This document shows positions 31,647-39,718 of a DNA stretch of 64,000 bases, in pieces (the stretch's first letter is position 1; every line of letters starts with the position of its first letter). The position numbers and the translations under genes are program-made. The notes under the pieces were generated by a model. That model searched no databases, was not told where the DNA came from, and was given only the letters and a program-made list of their open reading frames with translations. Source of the DNA: Alicyclobacillus contaminans DSM 17975. Lineage in GTDB: Bacteria > Bacillota > Bacilli > Alicyclobacillales > Alicyclobacillaceae. The stretch lies in contig NZ_AUCA01000014.1 of the NCBI RefSeq assembly GCF_000429525.1, forward strand, positions 1 to 64,000, written 5' to 3'.

Positions 31647-32294
31647 GTGAGCACTCGACGACTATTGGTATTGAATCTGGTCATCATCTTGCTCATCGTT
31701 GTGGCTGGATTCGTCGGTTATTACTTCTACAACCAATCGACCCTGTACCTGAAGACGGACAACGCCCAGGTCACCGGGCAACAGGTGACGATTGCCGCAC
31801 CCGCGACCGGCAAACTGGTATCCTGGAAAGGAACCAATGGCGCGACATTCAACGCGGATGACACCGTTGGGACGGTGGAAGTGCAACAGAACGGGAAAAC
31901 GGTGGATATCCCCGTGACCATTCCCGCCAACGGGACGATTGTGCAAAACTCAGCGGTGCAAAACGAAATCGTGGCGGCGGGAACGCCCCTTGCATACGCC
32001 TATGACATGCACAACCTGTGGGTGACGGCCAACATCAAGGAGACCCAGATCACGGACGTGAAAGTGGGGCAGAACGTGGACGTGTACGTCGATGCCGATC
32101 CGGGCGTGACCATCAAGGGAACCGTCAGCAGCATCGGCCTCGCCACGGCGAACACGTTCAGCTTGTTGCCGCAGTCCAATACATCCGCGAACTACACGAA
32201 GGTGACGCAGGTCATTCCGGTCACAATTTCCATCAGCGGCAGCCAGGGAGAACTGGTACCAGGCATGAGCGCAACGGTCCGGATTCACAAATAA
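31647..32294 (+). CDS. Short HlyD/EmrA-type efflux adaptor
   Basis: This 215-residue protein has one N-terminal membrane helix (about 6-28), a lipoyl/barrel-sandwich region (about 40-125, starting LKTDNAQVTGQQVTI) and a beta-barrel domain ending MSATVRIHK. EmrA-type adaptors usually carry a long coiled-coil hairpin inside the lipoyl domain; here it is replaced by a short loop. It probably assists the DHA2 permease encoded 12 nt downstream. The GTG start has GGGAGGAAA upstream. Confidence 0.82.
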   Translation: MSTRRLLVLNLVIILLIVVAGFVGYYFYNQSTLYLKTDNAQVTGQQVTIAAPATGKLVSWKGTNGATFNADDTVGTVEVQQNGKTVDIPVTIPANGTIVQNSAVQNEIVAAGTPLAYAYDMHNLWVTANIKETQITDVKVGQNVDVYVDADPGVTIKGTVSSIGLATANTFSLLPQSNTSANYTKVTQVIPVTISISGSQGELVPGMSATVRIHK

Positions 32295-32306
32295 GGGGTG
32301 TCGGCC

Positions 32307-33953
32307 TTGGCAAAGCACGAAGTGAGGACAACCAAAGCGCGTGAAGCGCCCAACCACAGAATGGTCATTCTCATGGTTCTGTTGTTGGGTGTGTTCGTGG
32401 CCATCCTGAACCAGACCTTGCTCAACGTCGCGATACCGCACCTGATGACGGCGTTCAACGTCTCGGCGGACACGGTGCAATGGCTGTCCACCGCCTACAT
32501 GTTGACCACCGGGGTGCTGGTGCCGCTCAGCGCATTTTTGATTGGCACTTTCACCACCCGGCAACTGTTCATCATATCGATGGTGCTGTTCACTGCGGGA
32601 TCGTTCATCTGCAGCATTTCGCCGACATTCGGCGTCATGCTGCTGGGACGCATCACGCAGGCCGCCGGCGGCGGTGTGATGATGCCGCTCATGATGACGG
32701 TCATTTTGGATCTCTTTCCACCGCAGACGCGTGGGAAAGCGATGGGAACGATGGCGATTGCTCTGTTTTTCGCGCCGGCCATCGGTCCGACCCTGTCCGG
32801 CTGGATGATAGAACACTGGAGCTGGCGCCTGTTGTTCTACGTTGTCATCCCCATCGCCCTGATTGACCTGGTGATGGCGGTGTTTCTCCTGCCCAATGTG
32901 GAAACGCCGGGGAAAAAGCCGAAACTGGATGCGTGGGGGGCCATCACGTCCATCATTGGCTTCAGCACGTTGTTGTATGGCTTCAGTGAGGCGGGCAGCA
33001 AAGGATGGAGCGATTCGGTTGTCATCAGTTCCATCTCCATCGGCGTGGTGTTCGTGATTCTGTTCATCGTTCAGGAAGTCAGATCACAAAACCCCATGCT
33101 GAACCTGCGCGTGTTCCGCTTCGATATATTCACGTTGACGACGGTCGTGGGCGCACTCATCAACATGGCCATGTTTGGAGCCATGATACTGACGCCCATT
33201 TACATGCAGAACATTCGCGGCTTCACGCCGCTGCAATCCGGCTTGGCCATGCTCCCGGGAGCGCTCTTGATGGGTATCATGTCGCCCATCTCCGGAGCCC
33301 TCTTTGACCGCTTGGGCGCGCGGCCGCTCGCCGTCATCGGCTTGCTCATCACGGCCATCACCACCTGGCAGTTCACGAAGTTGACCAGTGACACGTCGTA
33401 TGCGCACGTGATGTGGCTGTACACCTTCCGCATGTTCGGGATGTCTTTCATCGCCATGACCATTCAGACGGCGGGGCTGAACCAGTTGCCGAGAGAATAC
33501 TACAGCCACGGTACGGCGGCATCGAACACGGCGCGACAGGTGGCATCGTCGCTGGGGACCGCCATTCTCGTCTCGGTCATGACGACGCGGACGCAGGTTC
33601 ATTATGCGGATTACCAGAATGTCGTGACCATCAACAATCCGCATTTGGCTCAGAACCTGGCCATGTTGTCTCAAGGTTTCGCAGTCAAGATGGGACTGCC
33701 GACCGCTGCGGGTCAGAGCGTCACCGATTACTTGCTGTACAGTCTAGCCATGCAACAATCGACGATTGAAGGGATTAACGACGCGTTCTGGTGGGCGACC
33801 ATCGGAACCATCATCGCCCTGATTCTGTCGCTGTTCATTCGTCGCGTGAAATTTTCTGCCGTACGAACACAGCCACCGAAACCAGCCATTGACGACAGCG
33901 CGCCGCGGAAGTATCTCAACGAAACGAGAGCCGATGCCGCCGCAAAAGTGTAA
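32307..33953 (+). CDS. DHA2-family (EmrB/QacA) drug:proton antiporter
   Basis: This 548-residue permease has about fourteen membrane helices. It shows FVAILNQTLLNVAIPHL in helix 1, WLSTAYMLTTGVLVPLSAF in helix 2, GRITQAAGGGVMMPL in helix 4, and the antiporter motif C block APAIGPTLSGWMIEHWSWRLLF. Substrates are unknown. TTG 32307 is chosen because AAGGGG lies 8 nt before it; GTG 32298 overlaps those purines. It is cotranscribed with the adaptor gene upstream and a small membrane protein downstream. Confidence 0.88.
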   Translation: MAKHEVRTTKAREAPNHRMVILMVLLLGVFVAILNQTLLNVAIPHLMTAFNVSADTVQWLSTAYMLTTGVLVPLSAFLIGTFTTRQLFIISMVLFTAGSFICSISPTFGVMLLGRITQAAGGGVMMPLMMTVILDLFPPQTRGKAMGTMAIALFFAPAIGPTLSGWMIEHWSWRLLFYVVIPIALIDLVMAVFLLPNVETPGKKPKLDAWGAITSIIGFSTLLYGFSEAGSKGWSDSVVISSISIGVVFVILFIVQEVRSQNPMLNLRVFRFDIFTLTTVVGALINMAMFGAMILTPIYMQNIRGFTPLQSGLAMLPGALLMGIMSPISGALFDRLGARPLAVIGLLITAITTWQFTKLTSDTSYAHVMWLYTFRMFGMSFIAMTIQTAGLNQLPREYYSHGTAASNTARQVASSLGTAILVSVMTTRTQVHYADYQNVVTINNPHLAQNLAMLSQGFAVKMGLPTAAGQSVTDYLLYSLAMQQSTIEGINDAFWWATIGTIIALILSLFIRRVKFSAVRTQPPKPAIDDSAPRKYLNETRADAAAKV

Positions 33954-33982
33954 ACGCAGCCGCGGGGAGGGGGTGAAGGGAT

Positions 33983-34231
33983 TTGGCATTTGTGATCGGC
34001 TTCACCGCCCTGGTGGTGGTGGTTGGCGCCATACTCATCATCATCAATCTCAAAGCGGCCGCCCTGGACGAAGAAGACGCGCAGCAGCAAGCAGCTTCAC
34101 CCATCCTGCTGCCGCCGGGGTCCCAGTCTGACCAACCAGGTGCACCCGACGACGGGGAGAATCCCCGTCGCGCGCCTGACCTCTCAACGCATGGTGAGCT
34201 CGGCGACGGCGTTTTGAACCAAAAATCCTAA
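33983..34231 (+). CDS. Small single-span membrane protein
   Basis: This 82-residue protein has one hydrophobic helix (about 2-24, FVIGFTALVVVVGAILIII) and an acidic, Gln/Pro-rich tail. No family is recognised. The TTG start follows GGGGAGGGGGTGA. It lies 29 nt after the permease gene and before a strong terminator, so it appears to be the third gene of the efflux operon. A part in the pump is inferred from position only. Confidence 0.5.
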   Translation: MAFVIGFTALVVVVGAILIIINLKAAALDEEDAQQQAASPILLPPGSQSDQPGAPDDGENPRRAPDLSTHGELGDGVLNQKS

Positions 34232-34263
34232 GGGTACCAGACTCTCCAAATTACCATGACCTT

Positions 34264-34303
34264 CCCCGGCGCTACGCCGGGGCGGCATGCCCTTTCTTTT
34301 TTT
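34264..34303 (+). terminator. Rho-independent terminator of the efflux operon
   Basis: CCCCGGCG (34264-34271) pairs with CGCCGGGG (34275-34282) around CTA. An alternative GGGC/GCCC stem directly precedes TTTCTTTTTTT (34293-34303). Confidence 0.82.
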
Positions 34304-34470
34304 CAGATCTTGCCAACCACTTCTCATCAATGTCTAATGTGCTTGTCATACCCTCCCAAACAGGGCACCCTGAAAGTATCCATCAGATGAAGGCTCGGTC
34401 CGAACGGCACGTTGCCATCGGTGGCCATCGGGCCGGATACAGGCATGGGACACGTGACGGAGGAACAGAC

Positions 34471-35166
34471 ATGAGTGACCGATACCGAATTCTCGTGGTT
34501 GAAGACGAAGAAGACATCGCCGAATTCCTGGCGATGGAATTTGAGTACGAGGGATACGCTGTGACCACGGCGCTCGACGGCCGCGAGGGATTGAAGCTGG
34601 CGCTGGAGAAGTCGTGGGATATTATTTTGTTGGATGTCATGCTGCCACACATGAGCGGCATGGAAGTGTGTCGGCGGATTCGCGCCGTCAGCCAGGTACC
34701 CATCATCATGTTGACGGCTCGAGGCAGTGTGCCGGATCGGGTGGCGGGTCTGGATGCGGGTGCAGACGATTACTTGCAGAAACCGTTCGCCATTGAAGAA
34801 TTGTTGGCGCGCATCCGAGTTTTGTTGCGCCGGAGCCATGGGCCCGCGCACGAAAGCCCACTGCTGACCTGCGCGGATTTGTCCCTGAATCCGGCCACGC
34901 GAGAGGTGGAACGTCAAGGGAAATCGATTCACCTGACCGCCCGGGAGTTCGACCTACTCGAGACGTTCATGCGCCATCCCAATCAGGTGTTGACACGGGA
35001 CCAGTTGCTGGAACAGGTGTGGGGATATGATTACAGTGGGGAGACCAATATTGTGGATGTTTACGTGAGATATGTCCGGCAAAAAATCGATGTGCCGTTT
35101 GACTTCCCGCTCATCCACACCGTGCGGGGCGTTGGCTACATCCTCAAGGGGTCTGGCGGCCAGTGA
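34471..35166 (+). CDS. OmpR/PhoB-family response regulator
   Basis: This 231-residue regulator has a receiver domain (1-120) and a winged-helix DNA-binding domain (about 135-228). The acidic pocket is Glu11-Asp12, the phosphorylation site is Asp55 in ILLDVMLPH, and the switch Lys lies in YLQKPF. The output domain ends GETNIVDVYVRYVRQK and HTVRGVGYIL, typical of PhoB. ATG 34471 follows ACGGAGGAAC. It overlaps the kinase gene by 4 nt (GTGA). The target genes are not evident. Confidence 0.93.
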   Translation: MSDRYRILVVEDEEDIAEFLAMEFEYEGYAVTTALDGREGLKLALEKSWDIILLDVMLPHMSGMEVCRRIRAVSQVPIIMLTARGSVPDRVAGLDAGADDYLQKPFAIEELLARIRVLLRRSHGPAHESPLLTCADLSLNPATREVERQGKSIHLTAREFDLLETFMRHPNQVLTRDQLLEQVWGYDYSGETNIVDVYVRYVRQKIDVPFDFPLIHTVRGVGYILKGSGGQ

Positions 35167-36587
35167 AACTGAAAATTGCTGTGCTCGCCGCATCGGTTCT
35201 GTTCTGCATCCTGGTTGCACTCGGCGGCTTCATCTACTTCACCGTGTACACGCGCGTGACGTCCATCCAAAACAACGAACTTGCCAACACGGCGCAAAGC
35301 ATCGGACAGTATTATTCTGCCCATGCGCAGGCCGTCCAGGATCCGAGCGCAAGCCAACACCTCTACCGGTGGCTGGCCCAGTACAGCCGACATGACCAAG
35401 ACGTCGTTCTGTTTGACAGCCAGGGCAACGTGGTGGCCGCCGTGGGGCGGGACAACCTCCCCGCAGTCGTCGCCCGCTTCCGGCCGGTGGCGAGTCAGGA
35501 GCAGAAGACGTTCGCGTTGGACAGCAACCAACAGGTCACCTACACGGTCATCCCGGTGATGAACGAATCCGGAGCGAAACGCATCGGCTGGGTGGTGTTG
35601 GCCTCTGATGCGAGCGCCATTCAGGAGTACATGGAGTCTCTGCTCACCGTGCTTGCGGTGGGATGTCTCGGCGCCGTCGTGCTGGCGGGGTTCGGCGGGT
35701 ACCTGATTGCTGCGGCCGCACTGCGCCCCATGCATCAACTCATTGAGGTGGTGGAAGGCATTGAAGCGAACCGCCTGAGCACACGGGTTCCCCATATCAA
35801 TAGCCGAGACGAGGTGGGACGGCTCGCGGCGACGTTCAACAACATGCTCGGGCGCATTGAACGCTCGTTCGCCCAGCAGCGTCGATTTGTGGCGGACGCG
35901 TCCCACGAAATTCGAACGCCTCTCACCACCATCCTCGGTTACACAAACCTCCTGCGACGGTGGGGCAAGACGCGCCCAGATGTCCTCGAGCGCGGAATTC
36001 ATGTGATTGCCAAGGAATCGAATCGCCTTCTACGGTTGTCCGACGACCTGCTCCTGCTGGCGGGATTAGAAGCGACCACGACGCAGTTGGTATCGGAACA
36101 ACGAGCGGAGGTTGACTCCATCGCAGCGGACGTGGTCGAACAACTGAGTGTCGTGTACCCGGACGTCGCTGTGGACATGAGTCTGGCGGCTGATGCGGAG
36201 GTGCGCATGACTCCGGAACATCTGCGGCAGGTGCTGACGAACGTGATGGCGAACGCGCTCAAGTACACCGAAGCCGGCGGACAGGTCACGGTCCAGACGG
36301 AGCGGACGCATCTAGACCGGGTTCTTATCACCGTTGCCGATACCGGCATGGGCATCCCTGCAGAAGATCTCCCTCATGTCTTCGAACGTTTCTATCGCGC
36401 GGACAAATCCAGAGAGCGCAAACGGGGGGGCAGCGGACTCGGGTTGGCCATCGTCAAGGAACTGGTCGACCATTACGACGGATCCATTCAGATGGAGAGC
36501 CAGGTCGGCGCGGGGACTGTCGTTCGCATTGAACTGCCGCTGGCCGAGGCTGCCGCATCCGCTGCGGGGCGCCCGTCCCCCCCATGA
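35163..36587 (+). CDS. Membrane sensor histidine kinase
   Basis: This 474-residue kinase has two membrane helices (about 4-27 and 160-184) around an extracytoplasmic sensor of about 130 residues, a HAMP domain (186-240), HisKA with the phosphorylated His248 in DASHEIRTPL, and an ATPase domain. The N-box has Asn364, and the glycine loops are DTGMG (393-397) and GGSGLGLA (422-429). All key residues are present. It pairs with the response regulator that it overlaps. The signal is unknown. Confidence 0.93.
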   Translation: MKLKIAVLAASVLFCILVALGGFIYFTVYTRVTSIQNNELANTAQSIGQYYSAHAQAVQDPSASQHLYRWLAQYSRHDQDVVLFDSQGNVVAAVGRDNLPAVVARFRPVASQEQKTFALDSNQQVTYTVIPVMNESGAKRIGWVVLASDASAIQEYMESLLTVLAVGCLGAVVLAGFGGYLIAAAALRPMHQLIEVVEGIEANRLSTRVPHINSRDEVGRLAATFNNMLGRIERSFAQQRRFVADASHEIRTPLTTILGYTNLLRRWGKTRPDVLERGIHVIAKESNRLLRLSDDLLLLAGLEATTTQLVSEQRAEVDSIAADVVEQLSVVYPDVAVDMSLAADAEVRMTPEHLRQVLTNVMANALKYTEAGGQVTVQTERTHLDRVLITVADTGMGIPAEDLPHVFERFYRADKSRERKRGGSGLGLAIVKELVDHYDGSIQMESQVGAGTVVRIELPLAEAAASAAGRPSPP

Positions 36588-36719: not shown

Positions 36720-37643
36720 ATGCGAACCATGCAAACTGTGACGGAAAAAGGGTTGGATCACTCCATTTTGCCGATGCGGCTGTACCACAAAGCGAAGAAA
36801 CTCGGAATTTGGGATCCGAGGGATATCGACTTCACAAAGGATGCGGAGGACTGGGCAGGGTTCAGCGACATTCAGCGGGCCATCCTTTTGCGCCTGTGCA
36901 GTTTGTTTCAGGCGGGGGAAGAGGCGGTCACGCGAGATCTGTTGCCGCTGATTCGGGCCATTTCTCTTGAAGGAAGACTGGAAGAAGAGATGTATTTGGC
37001 GACCTTTCTGTGGGAAGAAGCCAAGCACACGGAAGTCTTTCGCCGATTCTTGGATGAGGTGGCCTGTGAGAAGAACGACCTCACGGCCATGCATGGCCCC
37101 AACTACCGGGCCATTTTCGACACCCAGTTGCCCGCGTCGATGGAGCGCCTCATCCACGACCCATCTCCGGCTGCGCAGGCGGAAGCCTCGGTAACCTACA
37201 ACATGGTCGTCGAAGGCGTGTTGGCGGAAACCGGGTACTACGCGTTCTACAACATGCTGCAGGCGAACGGAAAGATGCCTGGCCTGCTGCGGGCCATCGG
37301 CTATTTGAAAAAGGACGAATCACGTCACATCGGCTACGGAACCTACCTGTTGTCAAGGCTTATCAGTGAACAAGACGAGATTTGGCAAGTTGTTCAACGC
37401 CGGATTCAGCAACTGATGCCGTACGCCGTTGGCGTGGTATCCGAACTGTTTGAAGTCCTCAACCAACAGTTGGACGCCGTCGCGGCAGCCGGTGAAGAGC
37501 TCTTCGAACTGGACCAGCAGGACTTCATGAACTATGCCATGAAACAGTTCCAATCGCGTATGAATGTATTGGAGCGCGCCCGCGGAAAATCGGTGGATGA
37601 GATCTACCATGTCAGCGAAGCAACGGTCGGGGTGCTCGATTGA
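36720..37643 (+). CDS. R2-like ligand-binding oxidase (Mn/Fe)
   Basis: This 307-residue ferritin-like protein has the six R2-type metal ligands: Glu67, Glu100, His103, Glu165, Glu200 and His203. It also has Val70 and Tyr160, which form the Val-Tyr ether cross-link in R2lox. From memory of the Geobacillus kaustophilus R2loxI numbering (Glu69, Val72, Glu102, His105, Tyr162, Glu167, Glu202, His205), every position is offset by exactly two. The family carries a Mn/Fe cofactor and binds a long-chain fatty acid; its physiological reaction is unknown. It is therefore not a ribonucleotide reductase subunit. ATG 36720 has GGTGGGAGAG upstream. Confidence 0.92.
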   Translation: MRTMQTVTEKGLDHSILPMRLYHKAKKLGIWDPRDIDFTKDAEDWAGFSDIQRAILLRLCSLFQAGEEAVTRDLLPLIRAISLEGRLEEEMYLATFLWEEAKHTEVFRRFLDEVACEKNDLTAMHGPNYRAIFDTQLPASMERLIHDPSPAAQAEASVTYNMVVEGVLAETGYYAFYNMLQANGKMPGLLRAIGYLKKDESRHIGYGTYLLSRLISEQDEIWQVVQRRIQQLMPYAVGVVSELFEVLNQQLDAVAAAGEELFELDQQDFMNYAMKQFQSRMNVLERARGKSVDEIYHVSEATVGVLD

Positions 37644-37751
37644 CACATTGTCACTGCGATCCTGCCGTTCACCCCATCCGGTACGAACGCCGAATTCCAA
37701 ACTCGGCGATTCGATACATCGCATGAATCATGGACCCATTCAGAGAGGAGC

Positions 37752-38093
37752 ATGGCAATGGCGAGCACGAAAGAGATTTTCGACAAGATTCGCGAAACGT
37801 TGTCGGCAGATCCAGGCGCCGCGGGCGGCCTGGAGGCGGTGTATCAGTTCAACCTCAGCGGAGAGGACGGCGCTGTATACCAAATCATTCTGAAAGCTGA
37901 CTCGGCGGACGTAGCGGAAGGCACCCCGGCGCCAGCCGATTGTACGCTGGAATTGACCGCGGACGATTTCAAAGCCCTGGTGGAGGGCCGCCTGAACGGC
38001 ATGAACGCCTTCATGAGCGGACAACTTCGCGTCCTTGGGGATATCGGCCTGGCCATGCGCCTGGAACAGGTGCTGAGTGCCTACGCACAATAA
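37752..38093 (+). CDS. SCP2 sterol-binding domain protein
   Basis: This 113-residue single-domain protein resembles bacterial SCP-2 lipid carriers: YQFNLSGEDGAVYQIILKAD near 30, DCTLELTADDFKALVEGRLNGMNAFMSGQLRVLGDIGLAMRL-type sequence in the C-terminal half. The fold has a hydrophobic tunnel that binds fatty acyl or isoprenoid chains. It lies between an R2-like oxidase and an acyl-CoA ligase, which points to a shared lipid substrate. The ATG at 37752 has AGAGAGGAG upstream. Confidence 0.85.
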   Translation: MAMASTKEIFDKIRETLSADPGAAGGLEAVYQFNLSGEDGAVYQIILKADSADVAEGTPAPADCTLELTADDFKALVEGRLNGMNAFMSGQLRVLGDIGLAMRLEQVLSAYAQ

Positions 38094-38120
38094 TCCGCGC
38101 TATATCCTCGACTCATCATT

Positions 38121-38152
38121 GGCCGCACCTGACGACGGGTGCGGCCGTATTG
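38121..38152 (+). terminator. Terminator-like hairpin after the SCP2 gene
   Basis: GGCCGCACC (38121-38129) pairs perfectly with GGTGCGGCC (38138-38146), followed by GTATTGTTG. The weak T-run may allow partial read-through into the ligase gene. Confidence 0.6.
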
Positions 38153-38194
38153 TTGGGCGTGATGCTCAAACGGCGAACGACAGGAGGGAGCATT

Positions 38195-39718
38195 GTGAAT
38201 ATGGTTCAGCTGTTGGAACACAATCTCCAAACATACGGTGAGTACGTCCATCTGATCTACGAGGGACAATCGTTTACGAATATCCACCACGACCGAGTGT
38301 CATCCCAATGGGCACATGCTTTGCTCAACCTGGGTGTGTCCCGGGGCGATCACGTGCTGCTCATGCTGCCCAATATTCCTGAGGTTTTCTGGGCTTACAG
38401 CGCCGTGGTCAAGACGGGAGCCGTCGTCATCCCGGTGATGCCGCTGTTGCAGGTGGACGAAGTGCGGCATATTGTCCAGGATGCGCATCCCGTGGCCGTG
38501 TTGACCTCGGTGCTGTTGGCCGACAAGGTGTCCCAGGCGGTTGCAGCGTCCGGTGACATGGCACAGGTGCTGTTGGTGGATGACGAGGAACCTGCTGGCC
38601 TCCCTGGGCTATCCTCCCGTTGTTCCACCGAACGCCCCGAATTGTTCGTCGAGGACGACGCGGTGGCCGTCATCCTTTATACCTCTGGCACCACGGGCCG
38701 TCCCAAAGGCGTCGAGCTGACGCATCGAAATCTGTACAGCAATGCGCGGGCAGCGGCCACACTGGCGGAGAAATACAAGTTGAACGCGCCGCAGCGCACT
38801 GGCCTGTTCGTATTGCCGTTGTCGCACGCCTTTGGCTTCACCATGATGAATACTTCGATTGTGCTCGGAGAGCGAAACGTCCTGTTGCCCCACTTTCAGC
38901 CCCAACGGGTTTTGGAAGCCATCCAAACCTATCGGGTAACTCATTTCTCCGGTGTTCCCACGATGTTTCGTTCGATGTTGGCGTATCCAGACGCAGATAG
39001 ATATGACGTGTCGTCTCTGACGCTTTGCATTTCTGGATCAGCGCCCATGCATGCTTCGGAAATCACGGCATTTCAGGACAAATTTGGCGCGACCATCTAC
39101 CAGGGTTACGGCCTGTCCGAAGCAGCGCCCATCGTTACAGCCCCCCATTTCGACAAACCGCACAAACCGGAATCCGTGGGGCTGCCGCTGCCCGGTGTCG
39201 AAGTCCGAATTGTGGATGAGACAGATACTCCGGTCCCAACCGGAAAGGTGGGGGAACTGGTGGTGCGCGGGCCGAATGTCAGCCCTGGTTACCACCGCCT
39301 TCCTGAAGCGACGAGGCAGGTTTTCAAAGATGGCTGGCTGCACACGGGCGACATGGCCAAAGTCGACGACGAAGGTTATGTGTACATTGTGGATCGGAAA
39401 AGGGACGTGATCATCCGGGGCGGTTTCAACATCTACCCGCGAGACGTGGAGTTCCTGTTGAACCAACACGATGGCGTGAGTGAGTCGGCCGTCATCGGGG
39501 TACCCGCAGAACCAATGGGCGAAGAGGTCGTGGCGTTTGTTGTCAAGACGCGGCATCCGGACGTCACGGCCGAAGAACTGTTGGCGTATTGTCGGGCGCA
39601 CCTGGCGAAATATAAAACCCCGCGGGAAATTCGCTTCGTAAGTTATCTGCCGAAAAACTTGCTGGGCAAGGTCGACAAGAAGCAGTTGCGTCAACAAATC
39701 TCTGTCACGTCCATCTAG
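38195..39718 (+). CDS. Long-chain fatty acid-CoA ligase (AMP-binding family)
   Basis: This 507-residue enzyme activates a carboxylic acid with ATP and CoA. It has the P-loop ILYTSGTTGRPKG near 158, YQGYGLSEAAPIV near 295, the GWLHTGDMAKVDDEGYVYIVDRKRD block near 378 and the catalytic Lys in LLGKVDK near 495. Acyl chain preference cannot be read. Association with SCP2 and R2lox genes favours a long-chain lipid. GTG 38195 is chosen from its spacing to AGGAGGGAG; ATG 38201 is possible. Confidence 0.88.
   Translation: MNMVQLLEHNLQTYGEYVHLIYEGQSFTNIHHDRVSSQWAHALLNLGVSRGDHVLLMLPNIPEVFWAYSAVVKTGAVVIPVMPLLQVDEVRHIVQDAHPVAVLTSVLLADKVSQAVAASGDMAQVLLVDDEEPAGLPGLSSRCSTERPELFVEDDAVAVILYTSGTTGRPKGVELTHRNLYSNARAAATLAEKYKLNAPQRTGLFVLPLSHAFGFTMMNTSIVLGERNVLLPHFQPQRVLEAIQTYRVTHFSGVPTMFRSMLAYPDADRYDVSSLTLCISGSAPMHASEITAFQDKFGATIYQGYGLSEAAPIVTAPHFDKPHKPESVGLPLPGVEVRIVDETDTPVPTGKVGELVVRGPNVSPGYHRLPEATRQVFKDGWLHTGDMAKVDDEGYVYIVDRKRDVIIRGGFNIYPRDVEFLLNQHDGVSESAVIGVPAEPMGEEVVAFVVKTRHPDVTAEELLAYCRAHLAKYKTPREIRFVSYLPKNLLGKVDKKQLRQQISVTSI

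Follow-up and report, generated by a model that had tools for sequence, protein, structure and literature searches.

What does an R2-like ligand-binding oxidase (R2lox) oxidise when its gene is followed by those of a lipid carrier and an acyl-CoA ligase? The question is raised by a locus of Alicyclobacillus contaminans DSM 17975, which was analyzed within a stretch of 64,000 nucleotides (positions 1 to 64,000 of contig NZ_AUCA01000014.1, hereafter the window). The role of R2lox is unsettled, and the one report of its activity that we found rests on a crude lysate (PMC10867098); the conserved company that the gene keeps in Bacilli names likely steps of its pathway. Judging from gene content in relatives, we lean slightly towards the view that the three window genes derive by reduction from an R2lox cluster of Bacilli that oxidises hydrocarbons and feeds β-oxidation.

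R2lox, SCP2 and ligase genes of the window

The locus comprises the following features:

36720..37643, + strand: R2lox, 307 aa, assigned by family score and ligand residues
37758..38093, + strand: SCP2-type lipid carrier, assigned by PF02036 and predicted fold; the open reading frame (ORF) opens at 37752
38120..38147, + strand: terminator-like hairpin between SCP2 and ligase, 12 pairs, G+C-rich, then T-rich, TATTGTTG
38195..39718, + strand: AMP-forming acyl-CoA ligase, PRK06187-like, about 507 aa, two Pfam domains

Window positions 36720-37643 encode an intact R2lox with the full ligand set. The protein matches the NCBIfam model NF006202 'R2-like ligand-binding oxidase' with 364.6 bits (cut-off 315) and also passes NF006200 (288.7 bits, cut-off 194), while remaining under the respective cut-offs of the sister models NF006199, NF006198 and NF006201. 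Among solved structures, the 15 most similar score 196–225 bits, in a list headed by entries of the R2lox/GkR2loxI type, and class I R2 structures follow behind these with no more than 43 bits. The six metal ligands (E67, E100, H103, E165, E200 and H203) and the cross-link pair V70/Y160, which a preliminary description of the locus had already recognized, proved invariant in an alignment of 17 sequences. With an offset of 2, these ligands and the V/Y pair coincide with the key residues reported for GkR2loxI, namely E69, V72, E102, H105, Y162, E167, E202 and H205; structure 4hr0 and its mutants represent this protein (PMC10867098). An identity as class I ribonucleotide reductase R2 (NrdB) was considered and rejected because the scores are far under the cut-off (52.5 bits for the top NrdB model, cut-off 237).

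The second protein scores 77.3 bits against Pfam PF02036 (cut-off 21.3). Translation probably starts at ATG 37758 rather than at the ORF opening at 37752, since the former is better spaced from the AGGAG motif. The predicted model of the protein (mean predicted local distance difference test, pLDDT, 84.6) finds its top fold matches in the SCP2-like domain (SCP-2L) of human MFE-2, with 31–33% identity; UbiJ appears further down the list, and one mosquito SCP2 structure among the matches contains a C16 fatty acid. The ligase probably starts at GTG 38195 behind AGGAGGG, which gives 507 aa, and contains the Pfam domains AMP-binding (304.2 bits, cut-off 29.9) and AMP-binding_C (62.8 bits, cut-off 24.5). 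As it narrowly misses a long-chain subfamily model (470.1 bits, just under the cut-off), its chain-length preference is not assigned, and its PDB matches give no specific substrate hint. All three genes are open, full-length and on the + strand, and the Pfam scores and coordinates bear out the described succession of SCP2 and acyl-CoA ligase after R2lox.

Recurrence of the grouping and fuller clusters in relatives

To assess recurrence within the order, 59 genomes were considered, in which 27 R2lox places above 270 bits were found in 21 genomes, the window included; the flanking stretches of the other 26 places were examined. R2lox and SCP2 both occur in 17 order genomes and share a contig in 14 of these; in 11 of the 14 the distance between them is no more than 20 kb, one of the 11, the congeneric genome G016, being counted by a weak 27-bit SCP2. 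In the NrdB control, SCP2 was within 20 kb in none of the 7 same-contig genomes (14 have both), and because of this control a chance neighbourhood of R2lox and SCP2 was rejected. The counts include 27 R2lox rows above 270 bits and 26 weak NrdB rows (25 genomes); six rows of 70–101 bits, a weak partial row of G018 (C1) and two pieces of a deleted copy on contig C32 were excluded from both. Since many of the order genomes are closely related, these figures overstate the number of independent cases of linkage.

Locus L034 reproduces the window arrangement of R2lox, SCP2 and ligase in both order and strand, and continues with two acyl-CoA dehydrogenases (ACAD1 and ACAD2), a hydratase, a short-chain dehydrogenase/reductase (SDR) and a thiolase. 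L033 and L053 hold the same genes rearranged, the L033 stretch being without the thiolase. In ten other genomes (L033, L034, L038, L039, L053, L065, L143, L144, L145 and L146), R2lox, SCP2 and an orthologous ligase fall within a single 20-kb stretch, and the ligases that follow SCP2 in L033, L034, L038, L039 and L053 are 55–60% identical to that of the window. The gene-neighbourhood survey proposed in the preliminary description thus finds that the three-gene grouping recurs, often within a larger oxidation cluster; the lack of recurrence that would have spoken against the proposal was not observed.

The analysis was extended to 398 genomes of the class, a sample of a larger group, with thresholds of E ≤1e-40 for R2lox and E ≤1e-12 for SCP2. 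R2lox was detected in 64 genomes, SCP2 in 88 and both in 48 (Fisher p 5e-24, uncorrected for kinship). A quick R2lox tree of 110 rows, built with no bootstrap and with 20 long end branches flagged, places SCP2-linked R2lox in at least four parts: a GkR2loxI-like clade, the L043/L053 pair, the clade of the window (27 rows) and the CECT 9360/V59.32b pair. The second R2lox copy of L043 is also labelled as SCP2-linked on this tree, through the same SCP2 gene.

In the fuller clusters, the company of R2lox suggests a degradation pathway. At L053 the neighbours identified by Pfam and NCBIfam are two acyl-CoA dehydrogenases, enoyl-CoA hydratase, SDR, thiolase, aldehyde dehydrogenase, iron-type alcohol dehydrogenase and a kinase of the ABC1/UbiB family; they are joined by a small protein, c10, which at this locus has no Pfam or NCBIfam match. 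According to order-cluster profiles, R2lox, SCP2 and most of the β-oxidation genes stand together at twelve loci (L033, L034, L053, L143-L149, L120 and L138). Five of these (L147-L149, L120 and L138) have no close ligase, L120 and L138 are without the kinase and c10, and alcohol and aldehyde dehydrogenases are found by profile in only part of the twelve. The hydratase is of the crotonase type (ECH_1), and the alcohol dehydrogenase is of the zinc type in L146 and of the iron type in L053. Separately, clusters of R2lox with aldehyde and iron-type alcohol dehydrogenase hold a DUF779-type gene between the two dehydrogenases (L043:6702-7073, L044:11920-12273 and L045:12007-12366; the Pfam match was tested on the L043 gene).

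Several of the partners co-occur with R2lox. ACAD2 orthologues occur in 14 of the 59 order genomes, all among the 21 with R2lox. The UbiB-family kinase of the cluster, defined by a score band of about 150–176 bits among the matches listed, occurs in 16 order genomes, all of them R2lox-bearing; partial hits in G037 (168 bits, no R2lox), G041 (120 bits) and G005 (65 bits) were excluded. The UbiB model gives the cluster kinase 219 bits, below its cut-off of 488. Protein c10 (L053:14858-15268 and 19 relatives) has an invariant core, RxxAFxxQSGGP ... HLxxxxDHGxxG, and often a helix-prone C-terminal tail. Its predicted model has a long C-terminal helix and is of low confidence (pTM 0.30), for which reason no fold is claimed. 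c10 was matched in 31 of the 398 class genomes; after the marginal G235 was dropped, all 30 genomes kept carry R2lox, and in 27 of them the two genes are no more than 25 kb apart. The search scored 11 candidates per genome, and absences of c10 are not final. The DUF6230 family was found in 8 of the 59 order genomes, all with R2lox and 7 of them with it no more than 8 kb away; R2lox is also present in 24 of the 30 class genomes with DUF6230, class-wide absences of which are lower bounds, G002 and G009 having been missed by the class search and found by the order search.

The acyl-CoA dehydrogenase pair bears on the nature of the substrate. The position of the catalytic glutamate is occupied by Tyr in 11 of 11 ACAD1 and by Glu in 13 of 13 ACAD2 sequences, so that in the fuller clusters of the relatives one of two adjacent subunits has the residue, and ACAD1 may be the non-catalytic partner of ACAD2. 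Steroid heterotetrameric dehydrogenases are described as having the catalytic Glu in one subunit only (PMC8399759). This resemblance speaks for a bulky or branched substrate, such as an isoprenoid, an alicyclic chain or a sterol-like side chain, degraded by a cluster akin to peroxisomal branched-chain β-oxidation; the best fold match of the window SCP2, the MFE-2 domain, and the second-best PDB match of the cluster SDR, a (3R)-hydroxyacyl-CoA dehydrogenase, point the same way. The peroxisomal MFE-2/SCPx system carries out β-oxidation of branched chains, and it shares with the window an SCP2-like domain and with the relatives an SDR-type dehydrogenase and a thiolase. In contrast to that system, the bacterial proteins are separate, the hydratase is of the crotonase type, acyl-CoA dehydrogenases are present and R2lox would stand at the start. 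No steroid-ring-specific gene was seen among the cluster genes identified, the PDB matches of both ACAD1 and ACAD2 are led by medium-chain and unspecified acyl-CoA dehydrogenases, and neither ACAD gene is in the window. We consider a bulky or branched substrate distinctly unlikely.

The alkane cluster and the proposed pathway

GkR2loxI (GK2771) belongs to the GK2769-GK2782 alkane cluster of Geobacillus kaustophilus and was reported in 2024 to be an alkane monooxygenase, its crude recombinant lysate lowering the amounts of C10-C22 alkanes (PMC10867098). The statement that the substrate of R2lox is unknown, made in the preliminary description, is therefore partly outdated, on evidence that is modest. 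The R2lox of L146 (genome G284) is nearly identical to GkR2loxI (4hr0): over 300 aligned residues, a count by eye gave six differences. The following ORF, which matches DUF6230 in Pfam, holds (also by eye) both internal peptides of P21, an alkane-induced membrane protein of G. thermoleovorans B23 (PMC2676291). Given the near-identical R2lox and the P21 peptides in the next ORF, the published GK2771 cluster is very probably the one that L146 carries. The cluster in L146 includes SCP2, c10 and the UbiB-like gene. SCP2 and the UbiB-like kinase are thus parts that the published description leaves unmentioned: the main text of PMC10867098 has no occurrence of SCP2, sterol, ABC1, GK2773, GK2775 or GK2776, and our literature search for work joining R2lox to sterol carriers, SCP2 or UbiB yielded none. 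L146 also contains, between the zinc alcohol dehydrogenase and the aldehyde dehydrogenase, a 142-aa ORF (L146:14941-15369) with no Pfam match that looks like a distant SCP2-type protein.

The window shares with the GK2769-GK2782 cluster the association of R2lox with an acyl-CoA ligase, and its relatives share aldehyde and alcohol dehydrogenases, the ACAD pair, hydratase, SDR, thiolase and the P21-type protein (DUF6230). The window differs in grouping only R2lox, SCP2 and ligase, short of the full cluster. If these three genes are a reduced version of it, R2lox, an oxidase with a Mn/Fe or di-iron centre and a lipid-binding channel, would hydroxylate a long-chain hydrocarbon. The resulting alcohol would be converted to the acid by alcohol and aldehyde dehydrogenases, possibly the iron-type alcohol dehydrogenase and the aldehyde dehydrogenase encoded on another contig of the window genome. 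The ligase, judging from its family, would then convert the acid to acyl-CoA, and SCP2 would shuttle the substrate, which is poorly soluble, or the intermediates among the membrane, R2lox and the ligase. In the fuller clusters, the substrate may be fetched from the membrane with the aid of the UbiB-like ATPase, the P21-type membrane protein and c10, and the ACAD pair, hydratase, SDR and thiolase would complete the breakdown of the chain.

The preliminary description had proposed that a long-chain acid or isoprenoid is oxidised, carried and activated. The functional grouping behind this proposal is real. A fatty acid oxidised directly by R2lox, through hydroxylation or desaturation, with SCP2 carrying the product and the ligase activating it, would agree with the C16 or C18 hydroxy fatty acids that co-purified with GkR2loxI from E. 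coli (PMC10867098), with the C16 fatty acid in the mosquito SCP2 structure, and with the fact that only SCP2 and the ligase follow R2lox in the window. However, aldehyde and alcohol dehydrogenases near R2lox in several fuller clusters would be superfluous for a fatty-acid oxidase, and the gene of an alkane-inducible protein adjoins the GkR2loxI-like gene. Direct oxidation of a fatty acid is accordingly judged unlikely, and because of the dehydrogenases in several fuller clusters the sequence from hydrocarbon through alcohol and aldehyde to acid and then ligase is the likelier one.

The UbiB-UbiJ-UbiK proteins are accessory factors of ubiquinone synthesis. Similarly, a UbiB-family kinase, an SCP2 with a UbiJ-matching fold and the small c10, with its long C-terminal helix in the predicted model, adjoin in L053; the window differs in that it contains only the SCP2 of this set, and neither a cluster-type kinase nor c10 was found in the rest of its genome. 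We tentatively hypothesize, as a possibility short of an even chance, that R2lox of Bacilli is an entry oxidase to which a UbiB-like ATPase, SCP2 and c10 lift membrane hydrocarbons or isoprenoid-like chains, the acid then passing to a steroid-type two-subunit acyl-CoA dehydrogenase. If so, UbiB and SCP2 proteins would share a role outside quinone synthesis.

Weighing the reading in the window genome and across the class

A number of observations weigh against the three genes being a reduced hydrocarbon-oxidation cluster. The first concern the window genome itself. Twelve partner profiles and the R2lox profile, applied to the whole window and the rest of the contig, matched only R2lox, SCP2 and the ligase, and the genes identified include no evident electron donor for R2lox. 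In the window genome, c10 and DUF6230 are without a match, and no cluster-type UbiB kinase was found, its two ABC1 hits scoring 279 and 30 bits, both outside the band of the cluster copies. Genome-wide orthologue searches, made for ACAD2 and thiolase among the β-oxidation genes of the cluster, yielded no ACAD2 orthologue and paralogues only (39–47%); the thiolases, too, reach only paralogue-level likeness to the cluster thiolase (best 54%). For these two reasons, the window genome would have to rely on general β-oxidation.

The second group concerns linkage. R2lox and SCP2 are within 20 kb of each other in only 15 of the 48 class genomes having both; in 14 others they share a contig at greater distances, which reach 2.9 Mb, and in the remaining 19 they are on separate contigs. 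A named scan took the best 80 of 363 loci. For the counts within 10 kb, R2lox rows had to extend 8 kb or more to both sides of the gene, rows with short flanks being excluded, and SCP2 had to reach 100 bits on a custom profile; weak SCP2 such as that of L042 (27 bits) are not in these counts. Of 62 Bacillota rows, the window not counted, 14 have SCP2 within this distance of R2lox; none of the 18 rows from outside Bacillota does. Over 82 rows of the tree the linkage switches at least ten times, so the link between R2lox and SCP2 has often been lost or gained, which argues against strict dependence and equally against one frozen arrangement.

The third group concerns transcription and biochemistry. 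Because the hairpin at 38120-38147 lies between SCP2 and the ligase, a single transcript is not assured; termination there is possible and would split the two genes. Hairpins are also predicted in the SCP2-ligase gap of L034 and L038, and a terminator scan of that gap in both loci returned no site. As for GkR2loxI, the alkane assay was made on crude lysate, and a mutant in two ligands is reported to have lost its activity only partly (PMC10867098).

Finally, the congeneric genome G016 was compared with the window. Its flanks match the window on both sides, with HlyD, MFS, response regulator and kinase genes on one and YkuD and NAGPA genes on the other. Upstream of R2lox in the window (31647-36587), the genes encode a putative HlyD-type protein, an MFS transporter, a response regulator and a histidine kinase, and their order is kept in G016 (66–85% identity). 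The G016 site keeps SCP2 (66%) and has no R2lox, and beside the intact SCP2 lies a remnant of the ligase, L161:9701-9796, comprising the last 32 residues at 69% identity. This arrangement suggests an ancestor that had all three genes together, with decay in G016; a gain of R2lox in the window lineage is a possible alternative. Together with the hairpin, a congener that retains SCP2 without R2lox or an intact ligase weakens the idea that the three genes form a simple unit.

Contig C32 of the window genome holds a second R2lox copy (L047:17661-18252) from which roughly the middle third, including several ligands, is gone; intact-looking aldehyde dehydrogenase and iron-type alcohol dehydrogenase genes lie downstream of it. 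This internal deletion, the partners not found in the window genome and the G016 site, with its ligase reduced to the end and its R2lox missing, could indicate that the three window genes are neighbours by descent only, the remnant of a decaying cluster whose R2lox is repurposed or dispensable. Yet the window genes are open and full-length, R2lox keeps every ligand, and its end branch on the quick tree is short (0.18, compared with 0.36 and 0.37 for its neighbours). Such a remnant is improbable in our estimation, and we retain the reduced hydrocarbon-oxidation cluster as the preferred reading.

The window holds no GAF-LuxR regulator gene, and the closest relative in its genome is on contig C47 with no cluster genes nearby. 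Such a gene stands at the syntenic site in G016, and outside the window 36 of 109 R2lox rows have a GAF-LuxR regulator no more than 10 kb from R2lox, in 17 of them divergent and less than 500 bp away. Examples are provided by L034:7495-9129, L033:8131-9369, L093 and L120, and the regulator is a candidate hydrocarbon sensor.

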